From Oceaniferula marina (lineage in GTDB: Bacteria; Verrucomicrobiota; Verrucomicrobiia; Verrucomicrobiales; Akkermansiaceae), in the NCBI RefSeq assembly GCF_013391475.1, contig NZ_JACBAZ010000016.1, forward strand, positions 1 through 45,421: DNA of 45,421 nucleotides, given 5' to 3'. The translations under genes were made by a program, and so were the position numbers. The notes beneath the pieces were generated by a model. It was not told the DNA's origin and did not search any database. It was given only the letters and a program-made list of their open reading frames with translations. This document shows, in pieces, positions 2,403 to 45,421 of this stretch; the stretch's first letter is position 1; every line of letters begins with the position of its first letter.

Positions 2403-3782
2403 CTAGCGCAGAGGGTTCAACACCTTTACTCCCTCCGTGTCCTTTTGGCTTTCGCACCACTCGAGCAATTGTACTCTCATTGATTTCATCACATGTGCGT
2501 ATTCCGGATGGGAAGCCAAATTATTTAATTCAAATGGATCCTTCCGGTAGTCATAGAGTTCTTCTTGAGGCCGCTTGAGGTAGCGTCGAACCAGCTGTGC
2601 CGCATGTGGATCTTTCTCCGCCTTCTTGAGCCAAGAATCCCAATGGGGTAAATAATGCGGTCCGGACTTACAGCCGGTAATATGAGTCGTGAAGGGCGTT
2701 TCGGGTGAAAGATTGACAATATAACGGAAATGTTCGGTCCTGAGCGTTCGCGCCGGGCATGCGTTGGCAATTCCTGGGCCTCCGTTATCATTTCCAGTGT
2801 GCGTTCCAAACACTCCTTCACGATGGCTGGTCCGCTGACCGCGCAACATCGGCAAAAAACTCTTGCCGTCGATCCCTGCGGGTATCTCTTCACCCGCCGC
2901 ATTCAAACAGGTGGGCAACAAGTCAGCTAAACTCACCATGCCCCCGGCAATCGAGCCCGGATCGATCTCTCCCGGCCAACGGGCAATCAAGGGGACACGG
3001 AGTCCACCATCGTACACACACCATTTCGAAAAGGGCCAATTGGACCCCTGATCCGTCGTGTAAATCAACAGGGTCTCGTCTTTCCAACCTTTTTGATCCA
3101 CCACATTGATGACAGAACCCAGCATTTGGTCCATCAGAGTCACATCACTGTAATACCTCGCCCGATCTTCCCGGGTTTCCGGCGTATCTACAAAATTGGG
3201 CGGCAGTTTGATTTTCGATGGATCATAAATCTCGTTTTTTACCCAGGGCGTGTGCGGTGGATGGGAGCATACCACAAGAAACAAGGGCTGCTTCCGCTTA
3301 TAATTCATCAGAAAGGATGCCGCCGCTGTCTCGTCCTTCCGAATATGCTGATATGGGAAACGCTTTCTCGGATTATGATGAAATTTGCCAAAATGCGCGG
3401 TGTAATAGCCCGCCTTCTTGAAATACTCAGGCATGGTCATGATCCCCGATTGAATCGGAGTGCCAAATTTATGTCCACCATTCCGATGGGGCATCAGGCC
3501 CGTCTGAATAACGCAACGTGACGGACTACACAAGGGAGTGGCCGCATAAGCATGGGTCAACTTCATTCCCTCAGCAGCCAGTTGATTGATACTCGGCGTC
3601 TTGATATACCCATCCCCATAGGCACCGGAATCATTCCACCCATGGTCATCAGAAATGAACAGGATGATGTGCGGACGTTGCTCCGACTGCGCCAAACCCG
3701 ACATGGCACACAAACATACTACCGTCCTTATCAGCCAATTGTTTAACAAATGGAACCCCTTCCGGTTTAAGTTCTTCGACAT
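2403..3782 (-). CDS. Secreted sulfatase (Cys-type, heparan N-sulfatase-like)
   Basis: This is a type I sulfatase of the alkaline phosphatase superfamily, expected to hydrolyse sulfate esters or N-sulfates outside the cytoplasm. From the chosen start it is 459 aa. There is an N-terminal hydrophobic signal (about residues 12-31, WLIRTVVCLCAMSGLAQ), a metal-binding pair in FISDDHGWND (DD at 45-46) and the formylglycine motif CSPSR with Cys85. The C-terminal part carries the usual YDYRKDPFELNNLA segment. A longer frame runs up to 3857, but the ATG at 3782 puts a signal peptide at the N-terminus and leaves room for a promoter. The gene is divergent from a XylR-type regulator at 3884, which suggests that the regulator controls it in response to a sugar. 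The substrate is unknown. The short C-terminal tail lacks the lysine run seen in three other sulfatases of the window. Confidence 0.88.
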   Translation of the reverse strand: MSKNLNRKGFHLLNNWLIRTVVCLCAMSGLAQSEQRPHIILFISDDHGWNDSGAYGDGYIKTPSINQLAAEGMKLTHAYAATPLCSPSRCVIQTGLMPHRNGGHKFGTPIQSGIMTMPEYFKKAGYYTAHFGKFHHNPRKRFPYQHIRKDETAAASFLMNYKRKQPLFLVVCSHPPHTPWVKNEIYDPSKIKLPPNFVDTPETREDRARYYSDVTLMDQMLGSVINVVDQKGWKDETLLIYTTDQGSNWPFSKWCVYDGGLRVPLIARWPGEIDPGSIAGGMVSLADLLPTCLNAAGEEIPAGIDGKSFLPMLRGQRTSHREGVFGTHTGNDNGGPGIANACPARTLRTEHFRYIVNLSPETPFTTHITGCKSGPHYLPHWDSWLKKAEKDPHAAQLVRRYLKRPQEELYDYRKDPFELNNLASHPEYAHVMKSMRVQLLEWCESQKDTEGVKVLNPLR

Positions 3783-3883
3783 ATTATTTAGCCCTATACG
3801 ACGTAAAAAAAACGTTCTTGCATCTGGCCTGCCTCCCATCCAATGATGGCCTACCATCTGTATGATCCCATCATGGTAAGTTC
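3783..3883. promoter_or_regulatory. Divergent promoter region with inverted repeat
   Basis: This 101-bp gap separates the divergent sulfatase and XylR-type regulator genes, so it should hold both promoters. An inverted repeat TACCAT (3852-3857) and ATGGTA (3873-3878) lies just before the regulator start at 3884. Overlapping ATGATGG / CCATCAT blocks extend it. Its size and place fit an operator for the regulator, but no binding site for this family member is known to me, so this is inference. Confidence 0.4.
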
Positions 3884-15548: not shown

Positions 15549-15627
15549 CGCCCTTTCAGGGCTCGTCATTATTGCCACACCCACCCGGGGCGGTGCCCCG
15601 GGCTGGGATAAGACGCCCCTTCAGGGC
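15549..15627. repeat. Left REP cluster
   Basis: Two 14-bp palindromic blocks (15549-15562 and 15614-15627) flank a hairpin with an 8-bp stem CCCGGGGC and loop GGT (15584-15602). The same block-hairpin-block pattern recurs to the right of the transposase at 16381-16461. This cluster lies just before the 7-bp tandem array. Confidence 0.8.
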
Positions 15628-15644
15628 TAACAAAACGGCCTACT

Positions 15645-18866: not shown

Positions 18867-18888
18867 GCCCTGCACGAGGGCGTTATTT
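18867..18888 (+). terminator. Possible terminator between trpG and convergent sulfatase
   Basis: A 5-bp GC stem (GCCCT at 18867-18871 and AGGGC at 18877-18881, loop GCACG) is followed by GTTATTT. It lies 24 bp after the trpG stop, in the short gap between convergent genes. The stem is short and the T-run is broken, so the call is weak. Confidence 0.4.
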
Positions 18889-20418
18889 GGTTAATCTTGG
18901 TGCAGAATAACCCTGCTCTCGAATACCTTTTAACAAGCCAGTTAGTTCCTTGACCTTTTCCGGGTATTTATCTGCGATGTTGTGCCGCTGCCCGATATCA
19001 TCTTTCAGATTGTAAAGTTCCACGGCTTGTTGATCATCCGGTTTATATCCGTGTTTCTTTTCCCATTCGGCATTGCGTCCCGACAAGTAGCCATTTTTTG
19101 CAACAATAAGAACCCAGTCGTGATGACGGATTGCGTATTGATTGGCACGTGTGTTGTGTACATGAGAATACCTAACATTTTTTGTATCTCCTTTGAGCAA
19201 GGGAAGAAGGTCGTGAGAATCTTCCGCCGCATTTTCGTTGGGGAGCTCGAATCCAACAACCGAGGCCAGTGTCGCCATAATATCAATCTGGGACACTAAC
19301 GCTGTGCTCGTCGTGCCAGCCTTGGCAACACCCGGATACTTGATGATAAATGGTACGTGATGCCCACCTTCATAAATATCGCGCTTGAGCCCTCTCAATG
19401 GCTTGGACGACCAGTGGTCGTATTTTTGATCTCGAGCATAGGCGTATTTTTCCGGTCCGTTATCTGCAGAAAAAATAACAATGGTATTGTCTGACTGGCC
19501 GCTCTCCTGAACGGCGGCCAACAACCGTCCGACCGAATCATCTGTCTCAAAAACAAAATCACCGTACGGGCCGGCTTTGGATTTACCATCGAACTCATCA
19601 TTGGGAATAATCGGGGCATGAGGCGATGGATAGGCAAAGTAGAGGAAAAACGGCTTATCTGTTTTTGCTTGTGCTTTAATATAAGCAACCCCCTTTTGGG
19701 TTGTGACAGGGATATTTTCATAAGGATCCCAATCTGAACACATTGGGCCGGGACGGCATTCCCAGCTTCCCTCCTTGATTTTTTTCCACTTGCCCGTGTT
19801 CATGAGCGTATCAGGGGCTTTAACAAGTTTGTCATTCTCAATCCACGCATAGGGAGGAAAATTGATGACCGTGTCTCCAAAGTAATAATCAAACCCATGA
19901 TCGAGCGGACCATTCGGGATTGGTTGAGTCCAATCGTATGCCTCAGGTCCGTACGTTTTACGTTTCCGCTTATCGTTAGGGTCGACTCGTTTTTTTGCAT
20001 CCGGTTTGCGAATCGCATCCCAGTTCCACCCCAAATGCCACTTTCCAATCGCGGCGGTATCGTAGCCTTTCTGCTTGAGCATTTCCGGCAGAGTCAGGCG
20101 CTCGGGTTTAAACACGCTATTTCCCATTGCTCCGACAATGCCATGGAAGTCGCGCCAGTGGTGGCGACCTGTCAATAAAGCGTAACGTGACGGCGTGCAA
20201 ATTCCAGACGAAGAATGCCCATCTGTGAAACGTATGCCTTCGCTGGCAAGACGATCGAGATGAGGTGTTGGAATCTTACTCTCTGCGTTATAACACTGAA
20301 GATCTCCAAAACCTAAATCATCCGCATAAATGATCAGGATATTGGGCGCTTTACCAGCTGCTCCAACCGATAAGGATAAAGCCGCGAACAGAGTCGTTAT
20401 TTTAATTATGAACTTCAT
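18883..20418 (-). CDS. Secreted arylsulfatase (Cys-type)
   Basis: This 511-aa type I sulfatase has a signal peptide (residues 1 to about 22). The metal-binding segment is NILIIYADDLGFGDLQCYN (DD at 33-34), and the formylglycine motif is CTPSR with Cys74, followed by LLTGRHHWR. Further family elements are AIGKWHLGW, FLYFAYPSPHAPI and IFSADNGPEKY. It resembles the arylsulfatase A / N-acetylgalactosamine-6-sulfatase group; the substrate cannot be told. It is single in its transcription unit: the upstream 400 bp contain a dispersed leader repeat and a MITE-like insertion that separate it from the next sulfatase. It ends convergently with trpG. Confidence 0.92.
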   Translation of the reverse strand: MKFIIKITTLFAALSLSVGAAGKAPNILIIYADDLGFGDLQCYNAESKIPTPHLDRLASEGIRFTDGHSSSGICTPSRYALLTGRHHWRDFHGIVGAMGNSVFKPERLTLPEMLKQKGYDTAAIGKWHLGWNWDAIRKPDAKKRVDPNDKRKRKTYGPEAYDWTQPIPNGPLDHGFDYYFGDTVINFPPYAWIENDKLVKAPDTLMNTGKWKKIKEGSWECRPGPMCSDWDPYENIPVTTQKGVAYIKAQAKTDKPFFLYFAYPSPHAPIIPNDEFDGKSKAGPYGDFVFETDDSVGRLLAAVQESGQSDNTIVIFSADNGPEKYAYARDQKYDHWSSKPLRGLKRDIYEGGHHVPFIIKYPGVAKAGTTSTALVSQIDIMATLASVVGFELPNENAAEDSHDLLPLLKGDTKNVRYSHVHNTRANQYAIRHHDWVLIVAKNGYLSGRNAEWEKKHGYKPDDQQAVELYNLKDDIGQRHNIADKYPEKVKELTGLLKGIREQGYSAPRLTK

Positions 20419-20434
20419 AAGGTATGAAGCATCT

Positions 20435-20761
20435 ATGACGTGACCTCTCTTTTGTAGCCAGTAAAAAGTGAGTTTTATTGATGACTCAGCTATCTAATAC
20501 CAAGTAGTAAAACAGACGGGACGATAGCCGAGAGGAATGAGTTCTTTGGCAAGGCGCGACGAAGGAATGGTGCGGGCACCATGACTAAGGAGAAACAAAG
20601 CCAAAGGAGTCATTCATCCGGAACGCTCATGGATCACGCAGTGCTCTTCCAAATACCTCAACAATGATCAATCGTCCCGTCTGTTTTACGGAGTGGTATA
20701 ACCTTGGGTTTGATTTTACTTTGCTCTCCGTAACTGGGGAGCTGGCATGGAGGGGCTGGAG
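20435..20761 (-). repeat. Dispersed leader repeat, interrupted copy
   Basis: Read on the minus strand, this is the second copy of the segment at 18-140, split by a 201-bp insertion. Positions 20702-20761 match 77-18 and 20457-20497 match 118-78 of the first copy, joined exactly at the duplicated TAA. The part near 20435-20456 is less similar and ends about 17 bases before the sulfatase start codon. It therefore includes the sulfatase leader and probably its promoter. Confidence 0.8.
20498..20698. mobile_element. MITE-like element with 28-bp terminal inverted repeats
   Basis: The 201-bp element begins TACCA and ends TGGTA. The terminal 28 bases are inverted repeats with 24 matches (the four mismatches lie at positions 6-9). 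It is flanked by TAA on both sides (20495-20497 and 20699-20701), and the paralogous segment at 18-118 has a single TAA at that point, so the insertion and a 3-bp duplication are directly visible. Inside are a second inverted repeat (around 20534-20549 and 20601-20616) and a central hairpin ATGGTGC / GCACCAT (20567-20582). It encodes no protein. A relative starts at 45283. A transposase elsewhere would be needed to move it. Confidence 0.85.
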
Positions 20762-20820
20762 GGTTGCTTCTCCTACGGATAGATCGAGAATGGCCGTGCT
20801 CACATCTAAGTCACCCCAGT

Positions 20821-22443
20821 TCATTTCGTTTTTTTGTTCTTCTTTCGAGATGGCTTGGGATACACCTTGTCCTGCTGCGACCACTCCTGCCAAAGTTTCG
20901 CCATCTGCTTGAGGCGTTCCGGATGCTTGCCCGCCAAATTGTGTAGCTCTGTACGATCTTCACGCAGATTGTAGAGTTCCCACTTCTTCAGATCCGGCCC
21001 CGAAGCAGCGGCCACACCGCGTCCGACCAATTTCCACTCACCGTCGATGATAAAGGCATTGTTCTCGTGCTCAGAGAACATCGGCGCGGTACGTTTAAGC
21101 GACTCCCCCGAAAATGATGGAGCCAGTGAGATTCCGCGTAACGTTGGCAGCTTGTTGCCATTATAGCTTTTCGGGTATGGGGTTCCACTTACCTCCAACA
21201 AGGTCGGCACGACATCAATCACCTGTGCCGTTTCTCGATACCAATCAGATTGAGTTTTGATCCCCTTGGGCCAGTGCATAAAAAAGGGAGTCGCTGCACC
21301 ACCCTCATGAGTGAAATGCTTGTAGAGCCGAAAAGGTGTGCTTGAGACGTTGGCCCAGGCGGCACCGTAGTTGTTGTTGTGCTCAAGATTACGTTTCTGC
21401 GGATCAAGAATATGGCCTCTCCCGAGAACGGCCCCCTCAGCGCAGGCACCATTATCCGACATAAACAGAATGAGGGTGTTCTCATATTGCCCTTGCTTTT
21501 GAAGGGCCATTTTTAATTTGCCAATATTCTGGTCAATGCGGTCAATCATTGCGGCATAAACCGCCATACGCAGGTCCAATTCTTTCTGTTTCTCAGGCGA
21601 GAACGATTCCCAAGAGGGAACTCTCGCATCGCGCGGACTCAATGCATGCTTCGATTCCAACAAACCAAGCTCGAGCTGCCTCTTGTATCGCTGCTGACGC
21701 AACGCATCCCATCCAGCCATGTATTTTCCGCGGTATCGATCAATATCCTCTTCATGTGCCTGATGAGGCCAATGAGGTGCAGTGTAAGCCAAATAGAGAA
21801 AAAAGGGTTTCTCTTTTTTTCCTTCTTCAATGAAACGGATGGCATAATCGGTAAAGGCATCCGTGGTGTAATAGGGACGATCGGTGGTGCTGGTCAGTTC
21901 TGTGAGTGCTTCATTGCCAAGGCTGATATCACGCGGAGCCAAAGGCTTGAATAAACGGGTTGCTCCTGAGATACAACCGTAGAACTTTTCAAAGCCACGC
22001 TGCAACGGCCAACGCGAACGGTCATGATGGCCCAAGTGCCATTTACCGGTCAGATAAGTTTGATACCCGGATGCCTGCAGCATTTCGCCCAGCGTGACAC
22101 ATTGACGATTTAAAAATCCACGGTAGTTAGGGAAGGCCTCCCCCTTGTCATGATACATCGATTGAGGTGGGTTGGTCATATGTCCAATGCCAGTCAAATG
22201 AGGGTGTAGTCCGGTCATGAGCGATGCCCGGGTCGGACAGCAACGCGATGCATTATAAAAATGCGAAAATCGCACACCTCCCATCGCCAAGGAATCCAAA
22301 TGAGGCGTTTGGATCTCACCACCATAAGACCCGATGTCTGAAAAGCCCATATCATCGACTAGAATAACAATGATGTTAGGCCGATCAGCAGCACTGAGAA
22401 AGCCGCAGGAAAGAATCCCTAAGCATAGGAGAAGGTATTTCAT
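20821..22443 (-). CDS. Secreted arylsulfatase, second gene of operon
   Basis: This 540-aa sulfatase has a signal peptide (residues 1-19), the metal site VILVDDMGFSDIGSYGG (DD at 30-31) and the formylglycine motif CCPTR, in which Cys68 is the predicted modified residue and the second cysteine is the variable position. LMTGLHPHLTGIGHM, YLTGKWHLGHHDRSRWPL and LFMSDNGACAEG are also typical of arylsulfatases. The tail KPSRKKNKKTK is strongly basic. Its ATG is separated from the TAA of the preceding sulfatase by only CCT, so the two are surely one transcript. Promoter signals should lie upstream of 23811. Its substrate is unknown. Confidence 0.92.
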   Translation of the reverse strand: MKYLLLCLGILSCGFLSAADRPNIIVILVDDMGFSDIGSYGGEIQTPHLDSLAMGGVRFSHFYNASRCCPTRASLMTGLHPHLTGIGHMTNPPQSMYHDKGEAFPNYRGFLNRQCVTLGEMLQASGYQTYLTGKWHLGHHDRSRWPLQRGFEKFYGCISGATRLFKPLAPRDISLGNEALTELTSTTDRPYYTTDAFTDYAIRFIEEGKKEKPFFLYLAYTAPHWPHQAHEEDIDRYRGKYMAGWDALRQQRYKRQLELGLLESKHALSPRDARVPSWESFSPEKQKELDLRMAVYAAMIDRIDQNIGKLKMALQKQGQYENTLILFMSDNGACAEGAVLGRGHILDPQKRNLEHNNNYGAAWANVSSTPFRLYKHFTHEGGAATPFFMHWPKGIKTQSDWYRETAQVIDVVPTLLEVSGTPYPKSYNGNKLPTLRGISLAPSFSGESLKRTAPMFSEHENNAFIIDGEWKLVGRGVAAASGPDLKKWELYNLREDRTELHNLAGKHPERLKQMAKLWQEWSQQDKVYPKPSRKKNKKTK

Positions 22444-22446
22444 AGG

Positions 22447-23811
22447 TTATTTTTTCTTGTTTGTCTTTCGTTTCTTTTTACCGCGGGTTTGGCGTTCATT
22501 GGCCGCCAACTCAGTCGCTTGCCCCAGATCACCTTGGCTGTTCATCCAGGTTTCCAGCTGAGTACGCAAGGCCGCAATCAACGGGGCGTTCTCTGGGTTC
22601 GACGCAATATTGTTCATTTCAAACGGATCCTTGGTCAAATCGTAGAGTTCGAGCGCCGGACGTTTTTTGTAACGTGCCACCGTGGTTGCGGCATGAGCAT
22701 CACCTGCAGCAGCCCGCGCTTCCCACGATTTGAACTCCTTCGTTTTCATGCAGGTATTCGAGAACTCTGCTTCAGGGCTAAGGTTCACAATCAACTTGTG
22801 GCTCTTCGATCGCACCGAGCGAATGCCATAATAATCCGATCCACTATGAATACCACGTGTGGTCATGATGCCATACACGTAATCTTTGTGCTCATTGCTC
22901 TCTCCCTTAAGTAGCGGTAATAAGCTTTGACCGTCGAGCGTGGCAGGTCGGCTCCCGCCGGCAGCATCGATAAAGGTCGGCGTAAAATCAACAAACTCCA
23001 CCAAAGCATCACTGCTCGTGCCCGCCTCCACCACGCCCGGCCAGCGACAAACCAAACCACTTTGCAAACCGGAGTCGTAACAAGTCCATTTGGCAAAAGG
23101 CAGGCTGTTCCCCTGTTCACTGGTCACCATGACCAAGGTGTTTTCTGTGAGGCCATGCTGATCGAGCAATGCAAGAATCTGTCCAACCTGGCTATCGTAG
23201 TAGGTAATTTCCGCCAGATATTTGGCGAAGCCTTTACGCGTTTCAGGCGTGTCGACATAATACGGGGGCAGCTTGATTTGATCAACAGGGTATCGGGAGG
23301 CATCCCCCTTATCCCAAGGTGTGTGGGGCTCATTCGAACAAGCAAAGAGACAAAAGGGCTTACCGGAGGATTTTGAATCGCGCATCAACTCATCGATCGC
23401 CTTCATGTCCGGATTTTTCTTACCCGAGTATTCGAAAGGAAACACTTCCTTCGGCGCGATATGGGTCTTGCCACTCAATGCCACGCGATACCCCAAGGGC
23501 TTGAGGTAATGAACGATGCTCTTGGTTCCGGATTTAGCAAAGGTGTGGTTAGGGTATGCACCACTCTTAACCGGATAGAGACCCGTGTAGATATTGTGTC
23601 GCGTCGGGGAGCACATCGGGGCGGCTTGAAAACATTGGGTGAAGCGTTTTCCCTGCTTCGCCAGGGCATCAATATGCGGCGTGTGGGCCTGACCACCATA
23701 ACACCCCAGATCGCGGTGAGTTAAGTCATCCGCCATGATATACACGATGTTGGGTTTCGATTCAGCCCCTAATAGCGGCAAACAGAGAAGGAGAAATAAA
23801 ATGACAGGCAT
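22447..23811 (-). CDS. Secreted sulfatase, first gene of operon
   Basis: This 454-aa Cys-type sulfatase has a short signal peptide (about residues 1-16, ILFLLLCLPLLGAES), the metal site NIVYIMADDLTHRDLGCYGG (DD at 28-29) and CSPTR with Cys67. It also carries VALSGKTHIAPKEVFPF and the usual C-terminal LYDLTKDPFEMNNIAS. Its length and segments are close to the sulfatases at 2403 and 38570, which look like one subgroup (heparan N-sulfatase-like). It ends with a long basic tail (TRGKKKRKTNKKK). The downstream arylsulfatase starts three bases after its stop. Paired sulfatases often act on one substrate in sequence, but nothing here identifies it. Confidence 0.9.
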   Translation of the reverse strand: MPVILFLLLCLPLLGAESKPNIVYIMADDLTHRDLGCYGGQAHTPHIDALAKQGKRFTQCFQAAPMCSPTRHNIYTGLYPVKSGAYPNHTFAKSGTKSIVHYLKPLGYRVALSGKTHIAPKEVFPFEYSGKKNPDMKAIDELMRDSKSSGKPFCLFACSNEPHTPWDKGDASRYPVDQIKLPPYYVDTPETRKGFAKYLAEITYYDSQVGQILALLDQHGLTENTLVMVTSEQGNSLPFAKWTCYDSGLQSGLVCRWPGVVEAGTSSDALVEFVDFTPTFIDAAGGSRPATLDGQSLLPLLKGESNEHKDYVYGIMTTRGIHSGSDYYGIRSVRSKSHKLIVNLSPEAEFSNTCMKTKEFKSWEARAAAGDAHAATTVARYKKRPALELYDLTKDPFEMNNIASNPENAPLIAALRTQLETWMNSQGDLGQATELAANERQTRGKKKRKTNKKK

Positions 23812-45251: not shown

Positions 45252-45282
45252 ACCGTGGAAACATCATCAGTAGATGCTCTTA

Positions 45283-45421
45283 TACCATTTGAGTGGTTCG
45301 TTTGTCGGAATGGCGGTGTTCGTTTGGCCTTGAGTTCAAGGCGTGACAAAGGAATGTAGCGAGCTACATGACTGAGGAAAAACGCCGAAATCAAGCCAAA
45401 GAAATACCGCTTTTCATTCCC
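45283..45421. mobile_element. MITE-like element, cut by the window end
   Basis: It begins TACCA directly after TTA, as the element at 20498 begins TACCA after TAA. It contains the same central block: CAAGGCG, then GAC, AAGGA, hairpin, GACT and AGGA. The hairpin here is ATGTAGC / GCTACAT (45354-45369), against ATGGTGC / GCACCAT in the other copy. A long imperfect inverted repeat pairs 45308-45343 with 45372-45420. The other terminus must lie beyond 45421. No protein is encoded. Confidence 0.7.

Follow-up and report, generated by a model that had tools for sequence, protein, structure and literature searches.

The window analysed here comprises 45,421 nucleotides from Oceaniferula marina, a member of the Akkermansiaceae whose genome is available as 88 contigs totaling 5.07 Mb. 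Four sulfatase genes were identified among the nine ORFs scanned (2403–3857, 18883–20418, 20821–22443 and 22447–23811), three of which are consecutive around a short repeat element at 20498–20698. The window opens with a 139-bp stretch, considered below, that is adjoined by a HATPase_c-domain gene and then a DUF4325 (STAS-like) gene (160–1328). An Rfam match to the Acido-Lenti-1 RNA lies at 15584–15628 (38.9 bits; threshold 37) and is followed by a short run of CACCCGA repeats. The repeat element itself contains no entry of 80 aa or more in the ORF list. Its boundaries, terminal inverted repeats (TIRs) and flanking triplets are as follows:

20498–20698, + strand: MITE of subfamily F1, 201 bp, with at least 41 matches at 95–100% in its own genome and TIRs agreeing at 24 of 28 positions
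20498–20525, + strand: left TIR, beginning TACCAAGTAG, located by repeat search
20671–20698, − strand: right TIR, beginning TACCACTCCG on the − strand, located by repeat search
20495–20497, no strand: left TAA target duplication, from the sequence and the class statistics of the own copies
20699–20701, no strand: right TAA target duplication, from the same evidence

Independent repeat finding returned the TIR pair as 29 nt at 86%. As a short, non-coding sequence with TIRs, the element satisfies one defining criterion of a MITE; another, the presence of multiple dispersed copies, is satisfied by at least 109 related arms in the same genome (see below). The whole element also folds more stably than 200 of 200 shuffles, whether treated as RNA (z −7.7) or as DNA (z −6.2).

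Copies of the element are abundant in the O. marina genome. The 201-bp query matched over nearly its full length (40 of 99 first-look candidates scored), with most of the listed copies near identical, and a pattern built on the TIR core occurred 72 and 82 times, as compared with once each for the reversed pattern. Among 57 full-length candidates, 38 carried an exact 3-bp duplication, each of the form TNA, versus 1 of 171 control 3-mers taken further out; these candidates were located by their ends, and some may pair the ends of different copies mistakenly. TNA was present on both sides of 44 candidates, and the middle base was identical in 38 of these, where 37% would be expected from base frequencies, an agreement that identifies a true duplication and not a fixed sequence at the element ends. 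In the draft genome G052, 11 of 14 copies counted by eye had a target duplication, the element edge having been moved one base inward after inspection. The MITE inserts precisely, with duplication of a 3-bp TNA target, and adjacent or nested copies are visible in the O. marina genome.

An empty counterpart of the insertion site is preserved at the start of the window, and the sequences concerned are:

1–139, + strand: end of an IS3-family element, containing the empty site at 18–118; five identical copies occur at contig ends
20436–20497, − strand: left half of a decayed IS3-family end, the host site (84% over 129 positions across the joint)
20702–20764, − strand: right half of the same decayed IS3-family relic (84% over the same 129 positions across the joint)

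When the flanks were joined through a single TAA and aligned without gaps to the reverse complement of 18–118, 86 of 101 positions agreed; a gapped alignment over a longer stretch gave 108 of 129. In contig C15, a copy of the 139-bp stretch runs into an IS3-family transposase (NF033516, 257.9 bits; cut-off 160), from which we conclude that the window starts with the end of an IS3-family element. On this sequence evidence, the host site of the MITE is the decayed remnant of an end of this kind. The initial annotation had described a MITE-like insertion of 201 bp with a 3-bp target duplication, 24/28 TIRs and TAA on either side, and was right in each detail; its hand count of 86 of 101 with a single TAA at the joint was reproduced on recounting, and the many copies, the adjacent and nested copies and the empty site all agree with the insertion it inferred. 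Neither outcome that would have refuted it was encountered, as the copies have TACCA/TGGTA ends and the 3-bp repeat is exact in the 38 candidates given above. Its treatment of 18–118 as a paralogue lacking the element stands with regard to the empty site and fails with regard to simple paralogy, since the 139-bp stretch is an IS3-family end; the empty-site argument therefore holds and gains a cause. The MITE reading was likewise correct and incomplete, having missed both the IS3-family nature of the empty site and the conserved, structured arm described next. Derivation of the MITE itself from the IS3 family was rejected, as the resident IS3-family end begins TGAGGTGG and the MITE begins TACCA.

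Turning to the interior of the element, one segment stands out:

20533–20619, + strand: conserved arm, consisting of a helix with tandem G-A steps, an apical hairpin and an outer stem (arm model R1, 72.9 bits, E 8e-20)

The arm is about 88 nt long, with its core about 55 bp from the left end of the element. Its helix has three tandem G-A/A-G steps, with one Watson–Crick pair in one interval and two in the other, and is closed by a variable apical hairpin and extended by a long variable outer stem. The arm of the present element is one of 40 seeds of model R1. Across the seeds, 91.2% of cells at 19 base-paired positions were paired, compared with 65.1% in shuffles and 24–49% when the partner was slid, and 207 cells showed double changes, against 62.8 in shuffles. 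The seeds had been chosen by letter pattern, and arms found by the model therefore weigh more. In 17 such arms that were not seeds and that fitted this layout on alignment, 90.4% of cells were paired (58.8% in shuffles, 32–36% slid) with 108 double changes (35.2 in shuffles). The three G-A steps read GA on both strands in 15, 13 and, for the innermost, 7 of these 17 arms, and 90 of 102 step cells were purine–purine; the pairs between the steps switch among G-C, C-G and A-T, as at one place with eight G-C, seven C-G and one A-T. Fourteen further model-found arms had been set aside; folded with no structure imposed, they gave the same layout, and 18 of 23 predicted pairs were kept while both sides changed.

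Several features of these alignments limit their weight. The alignment of non-seed arms (A3) comprises 15 of 30 R1 loci and two arms from O. marina; one poorly aligned locus (L292) was kept, and one seed-like locus (L271) was left out together with 14 that differ in spacing or letters (11 of family f26, two of f19 and one of f7). The hairpin filter applied to the seeds favours paired apical stems and did not act on the outer stem. Conservation of the G-A steps among seeds is biased by the search pattern and regular expression; the later sets are free of the expression, but the model that found them was trained on the seeds. The shuffles keep sequence relatedness, and the covariation statistics are not tree-aware. 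With these reservations, comparative sequence evidence shows that the base pairs of the arm are under selection, and that its place relative to the element ends is nearly fixed. Wobble pairs are also unevenly distributed: G-U outnumbered A-C by 54 to 14 (30 to 14 without one mostly G-U pair; about 68 to 58 in shuffles), and by 27 to 7 in the outer stem. This excess favours folding of the strand that carries the G-A steps, whether as single-stranded DNA or as RNA; both kinds of nucleic acid accommodate tandem G-A steps stably.

The arm occupies a regular position between dissimilar ends. An inverted repeat starting 44–64 bp to the left of the core was found at 61 of 71 testable cores (median 55), ten of 81 having been excluded as too near the end of the available DNA. 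With all distances counted, an inverted repeat passed the score at 66 of the 71; at five of these it began less than 44 bp away, and some of the five may be the arm's own stem; in control flanks of other loci, some from the same genome, the figure was 6 of 64. With the arm and its distance unchanged, the terminal sequences, compared as 18-mers taken at a fixed offset, fall into about 23 clusters with less than 70% identity between them (two of the clusters share TACCA); the terminal repeats are not conserved from one element to another. A second, inverted arm 15–17 nt away was present at 17 of 52 loci scanned (46 of the 80 public-genome pattern loci and 6 of the 30 R1 loci). In 15 of 16 two-armed elements, both arms were equidistant from their respective ends within 2 nt, by a method that allowed differences of up to 12, and the two arms were separated by 16–17 nt; one further locus, L156, was left out of this measurement for its masked letters. 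The outer stem of the second arm covaries as well (87.4% versus 57.9%; six of the 16 are close relatives), and one two-armed element folds at z −11.9. Short forms, which make up 35 of 66, have room for a single arm, so two arms are not required.

Within the O. marina genome, model R1 detected at least 109 arms (E ≤ 0.001; 150 of 1092 candidates were scored). The elements have TACCA ends, are mostly flanked by TNA triplets and fall into four or more subfamilies. One of these arms lies at the right edge of the window, within a second MITE:

45283–45421, + strand: MITE of subfamily F2 (TACCATTTGAGTGG...), truncated by the contig end and preceded by TTA at 45280–45282
45320–45406, + strand: arm of the F2 element, not a model seed (R1 68.2 bits, E 2.1e-18)

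A complete F2 copy with TAA on both sides is present in contig C8 of the same genome, and the contig may have broken at this edge because of the repeat.

The arm is not confined to O. marina. A search with the element in 58 genomes, including its own, gave matches in 10; where the matched genome belongs to another family of the order, some of the matches are restricted to the interior of the element and the ends differ. A pattern for the inner core occurred in 8 of 288 genomes of the order, again including its own (control, zero), and in at least 80 stretches of public genomes. The latter derive from at least 38 assemblies, labelled as Verrucomicrobiota (20), Acidobacteriota (6), Bacteroidota (4), Myxococcota (3), Elusimicrobiota (2), Omnitrophota (1) and Proteobacteria (1), with one unassigned. 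These labels were taken from record titles and the taxonomy of one genus; most of the assemblies are metagenome bins, for which single labels may be wrong, and one carrier record, Rubritalea profundi, is a named strain. Subject to such errors of labelling, the same arm appears to be carried by MITEs with dissimilar ends in assemblies assigned to six or more phyla. Within the phylum, where stricter filters were applied at the cost of weak matches, R1 detected arms in 37 of 387 genomes (26 of the 311 good ones); as a negative control, 29 transposase loci gave no R1 match. Viral contigs gave no matches, and on plasmids the TIR probes matched at chance level only and two whole elements not at all. 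In some Verrucomicrobiota (family f26), arm-like hairpins are without clear terminal repeats, which counts against the reading proposed below.

The initial annotation had also suggested looking for a full-length partner carrying a transposase between TACCA/TGGTA ends; such a partner was sought and did not emerge. In a non-exhaustive search, no transposase with matching ends was found in the genomes of O. marina, Rubritalea profundi, G052 or the one-contig genome G151. The first and third of these are drafts in which a partner may be collapsed or missing, and strongly diverged ends would have escaped detection; in O. marina, 100 of the 154 TIR-core places were listed and 54 ends were not, and in G151 one end type only was used. 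Stretches around unpaired ends in O. marina proved to be truncated, diverged or composite MITEs. In R. profundi, an inward-facing pair of ends 1.26 kb apart encloses one notable ORF, which matches HTH_3 and not a transposase. Near the unpaired ends of G052, nine of the ORFs of at least 130 aa were scanned and matched FecR, a sigma factor, carbonic anhydrase or nothing, and the six ends of one type in G151 all belong to 216-bp MITEs.

A search by protein family was similarly unproductive. Places encoding PF01609 in ten carriers (30 of 39 listed places, with one terminal sequence per genome) included none with that sequence at both ends, and one place (L214) resembling the tested MITE terminal sequence. 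Of the two PF01609 places in O. marina, the first has different ends and the second is a fragment in which no clear repeat is seen; PF13340, a family matched in 1 of 16 genomes overall, gave no match there. Members of the IS5 family (IS1031 and IS427 groups) generate TNA or TA-centred target duplications; of two features that would mark a derivative of the IS1031 group, the TNA duplication is present, and no related transposase with the ends of the MITE was found in O. marina. The closest likeness was found in carrier G302, where an element encoding PF01609 and PF13340 with ends AGAGCCTATCCGAATAACC resembles the local MITE ends AGAGCCTGTCTGAAAATT, although mainly the outermost bases agree. No gene recurred near the arms, in stretches of 8 kb or shorter, with at most 5 of 38 assemblies sharing one family. 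As no transposase with matching ends was found in the four genomes, mobilization in trans is inferred and not demonstrated.

We propose that the element at 20498–20698 is a non-autonomous DNA transposon, a MITE of an Akkermansiaceae bacterium, whose arm fold is under selection and which is moved in trans, an explanation that we consider, taken as a whole, probably correct. The enzyme would be a DDE-type transposase that makes staggered cuts, 3 nt apart, at TNA. Folded within a single strand, the arm could form a binding structure that aids mobilization or replication, and would be retained as the terminal repeats adapt to different transposases. The role of the arm is inferred and not shown, and we lean only slightly toward its use in transposition as single-stranded DNA or a cruciform. 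A more speculative extension, which we advance tentatively and consider less likely than not, is that the folded arm, and not the ends or the enzyme, defines a transposable-element superfamily: the arm would be a heritable core that spreads between phyla and repeatedly adopts terminal repeats for different resident transposases, with the two-armed, mirror-symmetric form as the complete design and one-armed forms as reductions. Such elements would live on the enzymes of other elements, as SINEs do.

The main alternative is that the arm is an RNA module, either a small RNA or an mRNA-processing structure, produced by read-through from neighboring genes, with the element serving as a vehicle and selection acting on the transcript. 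The strand-biased wobble pairs, the conserved purine-rich helix and the very stable fold would suit such a module, and a pair of inverted arms would supply a sense copy whichever way the element lies. Transcription of other bacterial MITEs, with effects on neighboring mRNA through folding, has been reported (PMC3733652). However, a simple scan found no promoter- or terminator-like site in the element. Rfam 15 gave nothing above threshold on the element (window searched at gathering thresholds, element at E up to 10, eight loci at E up to 1), and the weak matches for the element and the eight loci were to animal or plant RNA families only. Among 37 copies in O. marina, compared with mechanical ORFs after removal of one foreign locus, 9 and 8 were in tandem in the two orientations, 18 lay between convergent genes and 2 between divergent genes, with two copies falling within mechanical ORFs; this lack of orientation preference speaks against a sense-strand role in mRNA. 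A role as a transcription terminator was considered, as 18 of the 37 copies are convergently placed, and rejected: the simple scan found no terminator-like site, and tolerance of insertion accounts for where the copies lie. The bias in wobble pairs is compatible with a transposition structure as well as with an RNA, and the data do not show transposition rather than RNA action. A role in transposition is favoured by the mirror symmetry of the two-armed forms and by the fixed distance from the ends, the latter being unexpected for a passenger RNA; we accordingly think it unlikely that the arm works as RNA, and rank the RNA module as a doubtful but live reading.

A second alternative, a REPIN-like element moved by a hairpin-recognizing tyrosine (HUH) transposase of the RAYT or TIRYT type, is improbable. 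IS200/IS605-type enzymes are not known to make a target duplication, whereas the duplication here is genuine by the agreement of the TNA middle base in 38 of 44 copies, and the absence of a recurrent neighbor gene in stretches of 8 kb or shorter is a further point against this reading. The hairpins, the inverted doublets and the failure to find an autonomous copy would be in keeping with such a system; REPINs are described as inverted doublets forming hairpins (PMC3116915), and RAYT-like genes with inverted repeats are described from groups that include Acidobacteria (PMC3733652). Membership of the REPIN/RAYT class proper, defined by a GTAG/CGTC-tagged hairpin without target duplication, was rejected given the TNA duplication. 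Least credible is an ordinary MITE whose fold is a by-product of long inverted repeats without a function of its own, for although any inverted-repeat element folds and the listed copies within one genome are mostly near identical, covariation across dissimilar ends needs selection on the arm, the G-A steps are retained amid changing pairs, and the terminal repeats are not conserved across elements.

The preferred reading, a MITE with a selected arm moved in trans, places the element close to several known systems. The bcr1 repeats of Bacillus cereus have a conserved secondary structure. They belong to the same 100–400 bp class with tens to 130 copies but are associated with a TTTAT motif and described as confined to the B. 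cereus group (PMC6542083); the likeness was drawn without sequence comparison. The bacterial MITEs RUP, NEMIS, ERIC, Nezha and MITEAba12 are likewise short, gene-less and dispersed, with inverted repeats and target duplication (PMC3733652; PMC6382973). MITEAba12 is tied to a resident ISAba12 with the same ends and to one bacterial family (PMC6382973); here, in contrast, one internal fold is common to elements with dissimilar ends in assemblies labelled as several phyla, and the partner was not found. REPINs and RAYT/TIRYT repeats also consist of inverted doublets with hairpins, and their movement is believed to occur in trans (PMC3116915; PMC3733652). The constituent REPs are described as 20–40 bp sequences with GTAG or CGTC tags (PMC3733652), unlike the present MITE, with its TNA duplication and TIRs of about 20–30 bp. 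A literature search, with most subscription journals outside its reach, did not find the two core strings, and the entries listed for MITEs with RNA structure, for Verrucomicrobia or Akkermansia and for tandem G-A motifs included no description of this arm.

MITEs are usually read as worn-down insertion sequences that retain only their ends; in the present elements the inside is conserved and the ends are free to change, which reverses that picture. That the fold is kept across phyla despite differing ends suggests that the fold itself matters to the parasite, and a conserved inside suggests that the fold is read by a protein or process still to be identified. Model R1 provides a usable probe for repeats of a class seldom noticed in environmental bacteria, and arm-bearing repeats may explain some contig breaks in environmental assemblies.

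Two further observations concern the surroundings of individual copies. Two loci of family f26 (L289 and L297) place arm-like hairpins without clear TIRs near tRNA-Glu and tRNA-Thr genes. At three loci in the O. marina genome (L025, L211 and L353), MITE copies lie directly against the ends of a different insertion sequence, representing further nesting; at L211, the TCATTGGCGTCAAAATAAG ends of that insertion sequence flank a PF01609 gene.
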